Assembly (NCBI RefSeq): GCF_000949135.2
Contig: NZ_JTAN02000008.1
Coordinates: 1-64,000 of the forward strand
Direction of reading: 5' to 3'
DNA length: 64,000 bases
From: Burkholderia sp. USMB20
GTDB taxonomy: Bacteria; Pseudomonadota; Gammaproteobacteria; Burkholderiales; Burkholderiaceae
The translations under genes and the position numbers were made by a program. Position 1 is the first letter of the stretch, and every line of letters starts with the position of its first letter. Positions 27,420 to 30,407 of this stretch are shown here, one piece after another. The notes beneath the pieces were generated by a model that did no database searches, was not told where the DNA came from, and saw only the letters and a program-made list of their open reading frames with translations.

Positions 27420-28319
27420 TCATATCGCCCACTGCGTCTCGATCAGCCGCAGCGCGGCCGCGATCGCCGGTTCGTCGCGCCGCTCGACGAGCGCCACAAA
27501 GGTCAGCTCGGTCGGCACCGTCACGCGTTCGACGATCGTCAGCGCGTGCGCGTGCGCTTCGGCCAGCGCGGTCGAGTCCCGCGCGAGCGTCAACCCGATC
27601 CCCGATTTCACGAGATCGAGCATCGACTGCTCCTGGTCGACCTCGGCGACCTTCACCGGCTGCGCGCCGGCCGCCGCGAAAAGCCGCGACAGCAGCCGGT
27701 GATGGGCGGACGCCGGCGGCGTCCAGATCCACGGCAGCGCGGCGAGCGCGCGCCAGTCGTGCGCGCGCTGCACGCGCTCCTTCCAGCCGGCCGGCGCGAG
27801 CACGCGGTACTGGAAACGCGTGAGCGTGACCGTGTGGAACAGCGTGTCGTCGCGCGGCTCGTCCTCGCCGGGCCGGCCGATGTAGTAGCCGACGTCGAGC
27901 GCCCGCGCGCGCACCTGCTCGAGCACCCAGCCGGACATCCCGTGCCGCAGCGCGGTTTCTATCTGCGGATGGGTTTCGACCAGCGCGCGCAGGAAGCCGC
28001 CGAGCCGCAGGAAACCGGGGTCGAGAATCGTGCCGATCCGCAACCGGCCACGCACCTCGTGCCGCAGCGCGGCAGCGGCGCGCTGCACGTCGGCGGCTGC
28101 GGCCAGCGCGCGCTCCGCGTGCGGCAGCAGCGTCTGGCCGTCGCGTGTGAGCGCGAGCCCGCGCGACGTGCGCGTGAACAGCGTGACGCCGAGCGTTTCC
28201 TGCAGATGCTTGATCTGCAGGCTGACGGCCGGCTGCGTCAGGTGCAACTGCACGGCGGCGCGCGTCAGGTTGCCTTCGCGGGCGACCGTCGCGAACGCAC
28301 GGAGCAGGGTGAGATCCAT
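27420..28319 (-). CDS. LysR-type transcriptional regulator
   Basis: 299-aa LysR regulator. The N-terminal helix-turn-helix is MDLTLLRAFATVAREGNLTR followed by AAVQLHLTQPAVSLQIKHLQ, and GVTLFTRTSRGLALTRDGQT ends the DNA-binding domain. The effector domain runs from about residue 90 (VRGRLRIGTILDPGFLRLGG). The start ATG 28319 begins the conserved helix; a longer frame adds 13 residues without homology. It is divergent from the GMC oxidoreductase, its likely target, across a 402-base gap filled with hairpin repeats. The ligand is unknown. Confidence 0.92.
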   Translation of the reverse strand: MDLTLLRAFATVAREGNLTRAAVQLHLTQPAVSLQIKHLQETLGVTLFTRTSRGLALTRDGQTLLPHAERALAAAADVQRAAAALRHEVRGRLRIGTILDPGFLRLGGFLRALVETHPQIETALRHGMSGWVLEQVRARALDVGYYIGRPGEDEPRDDTLFHTVTLTRFQYRVLAPAGWKERVQRAHDWRALAALPWIWTPPASAHHRLLSRLFAAAGAQPVKVAEVDQEQSMLDLVKSGIGLTLARDSTALAEAHAHALTIVERVTVPTELTFVALVERRDEPAIAAALRLIETQWAI

Positions 28320-28480
28320 CGTCGTGATATGAGCGCAGCTTATAACGCAGTTCAGCATAACTCATTGGATTGGTGGACGGCAGGCGGAGTACGCTTCATC
28401 GATCGCGTCGCCCGCGACGCACTATGCTGAAAACTACGCGCGGGATTGCGCCGCGCGGGACACAACAATGCGCTTTGCAT

Positions 28481-28710
28481 GGGGCACGAGTAGGCGATGA
28501 AGTGCTAACTCGGGTCGACCGCAAAGCACGGGGCACGAGTAAGCGCTAAAGCGCCAACTCGGGTCGACCGCCGTGGGGATGGAGTAAGCGCTGAAGCGCC
28601 AACTTCATCCAACCACGCCATGGGACCCGAGTAAGCGCTGAAGCGCTAACTCGGGTCGACCGCAAAGCATGGGACCCGAGTAAGCGCTAAAGCGCTAACT
28701 CGGGTCGACA
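28481..28710 (+). repeat. Five tandem palindromic hairpin units in the GMC gene leader
   Basis: Units centred near 28500, 28547, 28593, 28640 and 28690, period about 48 bases. The best units (four and five) pair GACCCGAGT with ACTCGGGTC, then AGCGCT with AGCGCT, around a 2-4 base loop. Linkers are also alike (CGCAAAGCA-GGG). Unit three has different outer arms, GGATGGAGT and ACTTCATCC, yet they still pair fully with one G:U. The array ends at the Shine-Dalgarno sequence of the GMC gene (GGAGA at 28711), so it would be transcribed as a leader. Confidence 0.92.
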
Positions 28711-28721
28711 GGAGACACGTC

Positions 28722-30407
28722 GTGACGACTCAACGCACGCTCGAGGGCGAATTCGATTACGTGATCGTCGGCGCGGGCACCGCAGGCTGCGTGCTCGCGA
28801 ACCGCCTGACCGAGGATCCCGAGATCCGCGTGCTGCTGCTCGAAGCGGGCGGCAAGGACGACTATCACTGGATCCACATCCCGGTCGGCTATCTGTACTG
28901 CATCGGCAATCCACGCACGGACTGGCTGTACAAGACACAGCCGGAGGCGGCGCTCAACGGCCGCGCACTGTCGTATCCGCGCGGTCGCGTGCTCGGCGGC
29001 TGCTCGTCGATCAACGGGATGATCTACATGCGCGGCCAGCGCGAGGATTACGACAGCTGGGCGCAGGAAACCGGCGACGCGGGCTGGTCGTGGGACAGCG
29101 TGCTGCCGATCTTCAAGCGCAGCGAGGACCACCACGCGGGTGCGAGCGACGCACACGGCGCAGGTGGCTACTGGCGCGTCGAGAAGCAGCGGCTGCGCTG
29201 GGAGATCCTCGAATCGTTCGCGCAGGCCGCGCAGCAGACGGGCATCCCGGCGACCGACGATTTCAACCGCGGCGACAACAGCGGGGTCGGCTATTTCGAG
29301 GTGAACCAGAAGCGCGGCGTGCGCTGGAATACGTCGAAGGCGTTCCTGCGCCCCGCGATGACGCGCCCGAACCTGACCGTGATAACCGGCGCGCATGCGC
29401 AGCGCGTGATCTTCGACGGGCGGCGCGCGGTCGGCGTCGAGTATCGCGGCGGCGGCACCGACTACGTCGCGCACGCACGCGCCGAAGTGCTGCTGACCGC
29501 CGGCGCGGTGAACTCGCCGCAGCTGCTCGAACTGTCGGGCATCGGTGCGGGCGCACGGCTGCAGGCGCTCGGCATCGACGTCGTGCAGGACCTGCCGGGC
29601 GTCGGCGAGAACCTGCAGGATCACCTGCAACTGCGGATGGCGTTTCGCGTCGAAGGCGTGCGCACGTTGAACACGCTGTCCGCGCACTGGTGGGGCAAGC
29701 TGATGATCGGCGCGGAATACGCGCTGCTGCAGCGCGGGCCGATGTCGATGGCGCCGTCGCAGCTCGGTGCGTTCGCAAAATCCGATCCCGACGATCCCGC
29801 GCTCACGCGCCCCGATCTCGAATATCACGTGCAGCCGCTGTCGCTCGAGCGCTTCGGCGAGCCGCTGCACAGCTTCAACGCCTTTACGGCGTCCGTCTGC
29901 CATCTGCGGCCGAGTTCGCGCGGCAGCGTGCATATCGCGAGCCCCGATGCCGGCGTGGCGCCGTCGATCGCACCGAACTATCTGTCGACCGACCACGATC
30001 GCCAGGTCGCCGCGAACGCGCTGCGTCTCACGCGCCGCATCGCATCCGCGCCGGCGCTCGCGCGCTACCGTCCGGAGGAGATCCTGCCGGGCGAGCGATA
30101 CCGGACCGAAGCCGAACTGATCGAAGCGGCGGGTGCGGTCGGCACGACGATCTTCCATCCGGTCGGTACGTGCCGGATGGGGCGCGCGGACGACGCGCGT
30201 GCCGTCGTCGACAGCCGGCTGCGCGTGCGCGGCATCGCCGGGCTGCGGATCGTCGACGCATCGGTGATGCCGTTCATCACGTCGGGCAACACGAATTCGC
30301 CTACGCTGATGATCGCCGAGCGCGCAAGCGACATGATTCGCGCCGATCGACGCGCGACGCGTGACGCGACGCAGGTGCGAACGGACGCGACGATGACGGC
30401 TGCGTGA
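28722..30407 (+). CDS. GMC-family FAD oxidoreductase (choline/alcohol dehydrogenase-like)
   Basis: 561-aa flavoenzyme. The FAD fold DYVIVGAGTAGCVLANRLTE begins at residue 11. GMC signature 1 is GRVLGGCSSINGMIYMRGQR and signature 2 is GAVNSPQLLELSGIG. The C-terminal active site has HPVGTCRMG with the catalytic His, and NTNSPTLMIAERASDM. Length and motifs fit alcohol or choline dehydrogenases; the substrate is not evident. GTG 28722 is the start, ten bases after GGAG. The cofactor is reoxidised by an unknown acceptor. The LysR gene and the hairpin leader suggest tight control. The next genes downstream encode an ABC importer that may bring in its substrate, which is inference. Confidence 0.93.
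   Translation: MTTQRTLEGEFDYVIVGAGTAGCVLANRLTEDPEIRVLLLEAGGKDDYHWIHIPVGYLYCIGNPRTDWLYKTQPEAALNGRALSYPRGRVLGGCSSINGMIYMRGQREDYDSWAQETGDAGWSWDSVLPIFKRSEDHHAGASDAHGAGGYWRVEKQRLRWEILESFAQAAQQTGIPATDDFNRGDNSGVGYFEVNQKRGVRWNTSKAFLRPAMTRPNLTVITGAHAQRVIFDGRRAVGVEYRGGGTDYVAHARAEVLLTAGAVNSPQLLELSGIGAGARLQALGIDVVQDLPGVGENLQDHLQLRMAFRVEGVRTLNTLSAHWWGKLMIGAEYALLQRGPMSMAPSQLGAFAKSDPDDPALTRPDLEYHVQPLSLERFGEPLHSFNAFTASVCHLRPSSRGSVHIASPDAGVAPSIAPNYLSTDHDRQVAANALRLTRRIASAPALARYRPEEILPGERYRTEAELIEAAGAVGTTIFHPVGTCRMGRADDARAVVDSRLRVRGIAGLRIVDASVMPFITSGNTNSPTLMIAERASDMIRADRRATRDATQVRTDATMTAA

Follow-up and report, generated by a model that had tools for sequence, protein, structure and literature searches.

Tandem hairpins adjoining Shine-Dalgarno sites: a candidate RNA element of the Burkholderiaceae

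The array and its surroundings

In Burkholderia sp. USMB20, the leader of a gene for a GMC-family oxidoreductase carries five tandem hairpins that run up to the Shine-Dalgarno (SD) sequence, which raises the question of whether such an array belongs to this one gene or to something more general. The DNA analysed, hereafter the window, is the whole stretch of 64,000 nucleotides from contig NZ_JTAN02000008.1. The array, its parts and its neighbours are listed below, with scores from the covariance model introduced in the next section.

28472..28482, + strand: left terminus GCTTTGCATGG of the array; same boundary in the GMC leader of G001 (L003) and at nadA of G017 (L373)
28477..28519, + strand: hairpin unit 1, SD-distal, the most diverged in sequence; 55.9 bits
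28526..28568, + strand: hairpin unit 2; 65.4 bits
28571..28613, + strand: hairpin unit 3, of a second unit type, outer arms GGATGGAG/CTTCATCC; 55.5 bits
28618..28660, + strand: hairpin unit 4; 70.5 bits
28667..28709, + strand: hairpin unit 5, SD-proximal, consensus; 73.1 bits; a local hairpin in both the minimum free energy (MFE) and the centroid fold
28710..28715, + strand: SD sequence AGGAGA, immediately 3' of unit 5; AGGAGACACGTCGTG also in the arrayless relative L034
28722..30407, + strand: GMC-family oxidoreductase gene, GTG start; best matches are choline dehydrogenase models, below their cut-offs
27420..28358, - strand: divergent ORF resembling a LysR-type regulator, named by reading of its translation only

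An earlier note on this DNA had described five tandem palindromes ending at the SD of the GMC gene, and this was confirmed: five model units of 43 nt, spaced by 49, 45, 47 and 49 nt, occupy positions 28477-28709, AGGAGA follows at 28710-28715, and 6 nt separate it from the GTG codon at 28722. The five units stand, but they are imperfect palindromes, since A.G, A.C and A.A mismatches occur. Each begins with GCATGG or a variant of it and closes with CGAC or AAC; between these, nine outer base pairs and five inner ones are separated by a 1x1 A.A mismatch, and a four-base loop caps the inner stem. The A.A mismatch and a URAA loop are present in 5/5 units; units 1 and 2 have one A.G mismatch each in the outer arm; in the inner stem, unit 1 has one further mismatch, and an A.C occupies the foot in units 2 and 3. 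Unit 3 had been singled out for its changed outer arms, and the letters agree that all nine outer pairs are kept, one of them as G:U. It is no lone variant, as units resembling it, with different linkers, alternate with those of the main type in two relatives of the GMC locus (L035 and L039) and in one array of G001. The linkers of this second type (window unit 3, L035, L039 and L002) resemble CCGTGGGG / CCAACCACGCC and could pair with each other, and L039 carries apparent hybrids of the two types.

A 30-nt core pattern, with at most 3 mismatches allowed, was found 5 times in the window against 0.00 expected per shuffled window, units 2, 4 and 5 accounting for three of the matches and antisense echoes of the last two units for the others. 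The region 28440-28770 folds more stably than 100 of its own shuffles (z -8.5). Its MFE and centroid folds hold local hairpins at units 1, 3 and 5 only and pair unit 2 with unit 4; that the folded leader does not form five local hairpins speaks against reading the array as an RNA element. Elsewhere in the window, matches to the Rfam sRNAs ncS01 (RF02865; 35861-35971, + strand) and Bp1_781 (RF02423; 57982-58208, - strand) were seen.

Distribution of the hairpin family

A covariance model built from 32 units placed the hairpin at many sites in G001, the nearest to the window of the genomes searched, with 43 sense units in 23 arrays (E<=0.1; 45 hits, two of them antisense echoes that were dropped). 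At E<=0.001, matches occurred in at least 62 of 65 genomes of the genus, with between at least 4 and at least 85 units each (at least 37 in G001 and at least 65 in G021), and in at least 189 of 398 genomes of the family, belonging to at least 8 of 25 genera. At least 4 of 300 genomes of the order matched at the E<=1e-5 asked for there, all 4 within the same family. The numbers of candidates scored per genome were 98, 16 and 21 for genus, family and order, so that each unit count is a minimum and the lack of a match may in some cases be a false negative. Phage records gave no match to the model; 17 plasmid records did, all from Burkholderia, Paraburkholderia or Caballeronia.

The tentative mention in the earlier note of similar palindromes elsewhere in Burkholderia is thus borne out by G001 and by the genus-wide matches. 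Its view of the array as a leader of the GMC gene proved too narrow, the array being one member of a dispersed family that stands before many genes. Read from their translations, the genes downstream include nadA, prpC, atpC, a GMC gene (again in G333), a CoA-transferase, dehydrogenases and transporters.

Unit architecture and covariation

The family consensus is a unit of about 49 nt, GC(TTT or RAA)GCATGGG - hairpin - YCGACA. In G333, a genome of genus g20, the model search gave 190 hits, of which 139 sense units were used once antisense echoes and one partial hit had been dropped. These form 45 arrays of 1 to 7 units, and 71 of the 94 intervals between units are exactly 49 nt. Among the 117 units of exactly 43 nt, the A.A mismatch is kept in 99 and the URAA loop in 108.

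Pairing of the arms was evaluated in three sets of loci. In the loci of G001 and the window, 91.7% of cells were paired, against 79.8% after shuffling and at most 35.3% when the structure was slid. One SD-proximal unit per locus in G333 (2 of 45 arrays left out for length) gave 94.3% against 83.9%, with double changes in 11 of 14 pairs and 57 such cells against 14.5 in shuffles. Orthologous SD-proximal units at nadA, from the 30 best-scoring of 65 loci, one per genome, gave 95.9% against 87.3%, with 41 double-change cells against 13.2. All five measures exceeded every shuffle in the three tests with one exception, the number of pairs with double changes in the G001 and window set, which was reached in 11 of 500 shuffles; slid structures paired 15.6-37.1% of cells across the tests.

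The earlier note had proposed a covariance model in related genomes as a check, and covariation beyond shuffles was found at independent as well as orthologous loci. Such covariation is expected of a structured RNA element, and the position at the SD would imply transcription of the last unit. The further proposal that selection acts on structure rather than on sequence stands in its first half: paired changes recur in homologous arrays of all three sets, but conservation extends to the core sequence and to the feet (GCATGGG, CGAC), which indicates constraint on both. Moreover, the SD-proximal unit of each species may be a recent copy, so that pairing could serve the spread of the unit and not the host gene.

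Placement before translation starts

Arrays were scored by a strict rule, under which an SD-like tetramer lies at most 12 nt past the array, a start codon 3-13 nt further on, and a frame of at least 40 codons follows. In G333, 37/45 arrays pass, against 3/45 on the antisense side and 23/900 random places; in G001, 18/23 pass, against 1/23 and 12/460, about 2.6% of the random places passing in these two controls. The SD-like tetramer of the passing G333 arrays starts 0-6 nt after the unit. Among the G333 misses (L258, L263, L266, L272, L277, L283, L284 and L286), L263, L266 and L286 have AGGAG at most 2 nt from the array with a short frame, and L283 continues into another unit; among those of G001 (L009, L012, L174, L177 and L182), L182 has AGGAG with a short frame and L177 continues into another unit. 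In G001 and G333, the two fully examined genomes, the arrays are anchored at SD sites in the orientation of the gene. The existence, structure and placement of the family are well supported.

The upstream neighbour in G333, according to a heuristic gene call, is codirectional for 28/45 arrays and divergent for 17/45, and 11 arrays begin at most 57 nt past the stop codon of an upstream codirectional gene. In other genera, 14 of 27 hand-picked units from six genomes (facing Caballeronia copies left out) pass the strict rule, against 0/27 on the antisense side and 16/540 random places. This fraction speaks against the SD-anchored reading, as do Caballeronia copies located in an rRNA spacer and inside another repeat.

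The spacer copy, in G210 (L235:1501-1543), lies between 23S and 5S rRNA genes, antisense to the rRNA, and its 24-nt flank is also carried by L238 and L241. In Caballeronia L300:600-1343 and L297:568-1373, the hairpin sits within the loop of another dispersed palindrome (CTTTCTTTGC ... GCAAAGAAAG); such hairpin-bearing palindromes face each other about 480-740 bp apart, and L297 and L300 lie inside long inverted repeats. The same palindrome without the hairpin occurs upstream of the GMC gene in L071, and in a variant form in L043, L044 and L050.

Presence, absence and possible growth of arrays

At nadA, 54 of 65 genomes of the genus carry a unit that matches the model (30/30 and 24/35; E<=0.05 within each set, some matches weak), and the 13 nt from unit to start codon are identical in 30/30 genomes. 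Across 28 of those 30 loci (2 left out), divergence of the outer arms (0.278) exceeds that of third codon positions (0.196). The 11/65 leaders without a match, a count that speaks against the preferred reading given below, comprise seven short ones (G014, G015, G016, G025, G028, G051 and G053) and those of G040, G024, G043 and G041. The short leaders have an SD and no hairpin, with 53-86 nt between the upstream terminator and the start. G024 and G043 retain, by eye, a diverged hairpin ending CGACAGGAG, and the arrayless leader of G040, which stands among array-bearing genomes, looks like a secondary loss. When the single-unit leaders of G017, G021 and G036 are set against the arrayless one of G016, the insert stands out as a block flanked by CAGGGCTG and AGGAGATG. 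Upstream of nadA, at a distance of 53-350 nt, 65/65 leaders (L312-L376) hold a terminator-like inverted repeat with a T run, and in L357 and L359 the array begins right after it.

At the GMC gene, the array is present in the window, in G001 and G333, and in 2 of 80 named relatives (L035, L039); the other 78 have none, some of them with little upstream DNA (e.g. L056, L068, L087 and L089). The GMC gene therefore does not need the array. The arrayless relative L034 shares CACAACAA with the window on one side and AGGAGACACGTCGTG on the other. In these alignments, what distinguishes leaders with an array from those without is the presence of entire units immediately 5' of the SD.

The register of the G333 arrays, CGACA|GCTTTGCATGGG...CGACA|GGAG, implies that insertion of a unit after the A and ahead of GGAG would recreate an identical site for another. 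Match of the core to the consensus declines away from the SD, from 16.0 (n 20) to 14.1 (n 8) of 17 positions, and a comparison of the two ends in 12 arrays gave p 0.016 for the core and p 0.074 for pairing. Together, these observations are consistent with arrays that grow or are renewed from the SD side; slippage, accompanied by decay of the distal units, could also apply. Units may thus be added, or best retained, at the SD side, and the SD would be left intact each time while arrays grow.

Proposed action and competing explanations

What the family does and how it spreads we infer from the features above. The hairpin family is probably an undescribed RNA element acting at the translation start or on messenger stability, and we hold at about even chances the fuller reading of it as an SD-anchored RNA hairpin element of the Burkholderiaceae, built of head-to-tail units and renewed at the SD side. 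Any transcript begun upstream and translated from this SD would contain at least the last hairpin and could be acted upon as RNA. An SD-like tetramer 0-6 nt past the unit, together with a -10 stretch that would coincide with the freely varying arm, places the action on the RNA; on the latter ground a promoter-like role of the last unit was judged unlikely. Action would come after transcription begins, on ribosome loading or mRNA decay. The A.A mismatch (an internal loop in the RNA), the URAA loop and the GCAUGGG/CGAC feet are conserved, which suggests that a factor recognises them and is the most likely mediator; tandem repetition suggests that the number of units acts as a dose.

Narrower roles were considered. 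Transcription attenuation, one of the possibilities raised in the earlier note, is unlikely as a general role because arrays often follow codirectional genes closely (28/45 in G333, 11 of them at most 57 nt from the stop) and the window array has no terminator-like site on the sense strand in 28300-28800. A hairpin that keeps the SD open found no support, the unpaired probability of the SD being 0.406 with the real hairpins and 0.440 with shuffled ones (38 arrays, p 0.18). A conserved mini-ORF, with an AUG in the linker and an in-frame stop in the stem, was also set aside, no SD being seen by eye before the AUG; of 117 G333 units, 90 have both features, 20 only the start, 2 only the stop, and 5 neither.

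The main rival, a serious one though less likely than the preferred reading, is a selfish or near-neutral mobile palindrome (REP-, BOX- or MITE-like) that prefers sites just 5' of GGAG-type sequences, with pairing needed for its spread and host effects incidental. Several observations suit it: whole units are present or absent between species at nadA and GMC, the left terminus GCTTTGCATGG is repeated, the CGACA|GGAG junction recreates a site at which repeated insertion could grow arrays, distal units decay, the nadA leader of G040 is arrayless amid array-bearing genomes, and Caballeronia has copies in an rRNA spacer and inside another repeat. Against these stand the unit at nadA in 54/65 genomes and the failure to find a cognate enzyme, PF01797 (E<1e-5) being detected in 10/65 genomes and in neither G001 nor G021. 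In addition, the pneumococcal BOX repeat, judged parasitic, is enriched between convergent genes (PMC3049150, Table 1), whereas 37/45 and 18/23 arrays here lie at an SD and start codon.

A passive RNA barrier, for which any stable hairpin would suffice to guard the 5' or intercistronic end from ribonucleases or to keep the SD free, is improbable. It would explain a stable stem directly 5' of the SD, after divergent (17/45) and codirectional (28/45) neighbours alike (heuristic gene call), but a passive stem has no need of the conserved A.A mismatch, URAA loop and feet, and accessibility of the SD is not raised.

A more elaborate scheme, to which we give little credence, joins mobility and function: the RNA hairpin would spread between genes via SD sites, arrays would grow unit by unit, and a domesticated, catalytically degenerate RAYT-type hairpin-binding protein would read them, so that genes across the family would be joined in a post-transcriptional network graded by the number of units. 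A RAYT-like protein is encoded in 183 of 200 family genomes, its match to the NCBIfam model REP_Tyr_transpos lying below the cut-off, and in G001 (L377:959-1750) and G015 (L378:717-1445) the H-x-H of its HUH motif reads QVQ. Seven genomes examined from genera rich in units (g1, g10, g13, g20 and g25) have lost the motif, whereas sampled homologues from g3, g5 and g24, in which no units showed up, retain it. The pattern is broken by g7 and g15, which lack the motif although units were likewise not seen there, by G015, a g1 genome that has neither units nor the motif, and by g11, which retains the motif and has a few weaker matches (at least 3 units at E<=0.001 in G211). From these sequences, the association of motif loss with unit presence may be taken as a weak lead.

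Mutational correction of palindromes by template switching, which would maintain complementarity of the arms without selection, is very improbable: outer arms more divergent than third codon positions at nadA agree with it, but the A.A mismatch should then be erased too, yet it is kept in 99/117 units, the URAA loop likewise speaks against mere correction, and SD anchoring is left unexplained.

Should the preferred reading of an SD-anchored RNA element be true, many gene leaders in Burkholderia, Caballeronia and related genera hold an unannotated RNA element, which one survey has already listed as CRISPR, and there is a repeat family with copies linked to translation starts. It may then be asked how a repeat reaches SD sites or is retained there. 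Since leaders with no, one or several units form a natural series (nadA in 65 genomes, GMC in 80 relatives), an effect on expression is directly testable.

Comparison with known systems

An orphan CRISPR or its decay product can be dismissed for practical purposes: although such repeats appear without Cas genes in Paraburkholderia in Table 4 of PMC5968390, the linkers measure about 15 nt where the period is the commonest one and resemble one another, repeat arms covary and arrays sit at SDs. This survey lists as CRISPR, Cas not identified, repeats of P. terrae, P. hospita and P. oxyphila that contain the hairpin core, namely GCGTAAGCGCTAAAGCGCTAACGCC (P. terrae BS001 and BS110), GGCGTTAGCGCTTTAGTGCTTACGC (P. 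hospita and P. terrae BS007) and GTCGACCAGAGTTAGCGCTTCAGC (P. oxyphila); by their letters alone, these would belong to the same hairpin family. Unique spacers of repeat length, as expected of a CRISPR, are absent from G333, where the main linker TCGACAGCTTTGCATGGGA recurs in 29 of 94 cases. The earlier note had already rejected a CRISPR on its short and similar linkers, and the regular spacing in G333 (71/94 intervals of exactly 49 nt) upholds that judgement.

For the hairpin, Rfam gave no family match at gathering score, the window array yielding two miRNA matches far below theirs; matches to the toxic sRNA RF02278 in G001 lie at other places than the hairpin units. Phrase searches, with most subscription papers outside their scope, found no paper that names the hairpin family. 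The accessible parts of two papers on B. cenocepacia transcripts (PMC4603805, PMC5688073) do not mention the arrays, and of exact searches with repeat letters, one gave no paper and another PMC5968390 and PMC6431383 (Trypanosoma), the latter taken as chance.

Like cis-regulatory leader RNAs and 5' stabilising hairpins, considered as kinds, the units place a structured RNA directly 5' of the SD. Unlike either kind, they precede many unrelated genes per genome, have no evident ligand class and also occur between genes.

REP and REPIN sequences carry a conserved GTAG/GGAG tetranucleotide as their 5' foot. The present family resembles them as short imperfect palindromes, intergenic and many per genome, but differs in its direct 49-nt tandem arrays, SD anchoring and freely varying arms; the GTAG/GGAG foot was not found in the unit alignments, where the 5' foot is GCATGGG. 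A REP/RAYT system as general engine was rejected, PF01797 (Y1_Tnp) reaching E<1e-5 in 10/65 genomes of the genus, G001 not among them, with no strong match in the other 55.

According to PMC3049150, the pneumococcal BOX element (boxA-boxB(n)-boxC) is over-represented between convergent genes, judged parasitic and variable in unit number between strains. The hairpin family differs in that its units adjoin SDs in gene orientation (G001, G333), its arms covary and its hosts belong to another phylum; enrichment between convergent genes does not fit G333, where 37/45 arrays lie directly before an SD and start codon. Shared with BOX are dispersal, a modular build in which inner units repeat in tandem, in varying number, between distinct ends, and predicted RNA hairpins. 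G333 displays this build in arrays of 1-7 units: a first flank CAGCAACCATCTT in many arrays, an inner linker, and an end at the SD.
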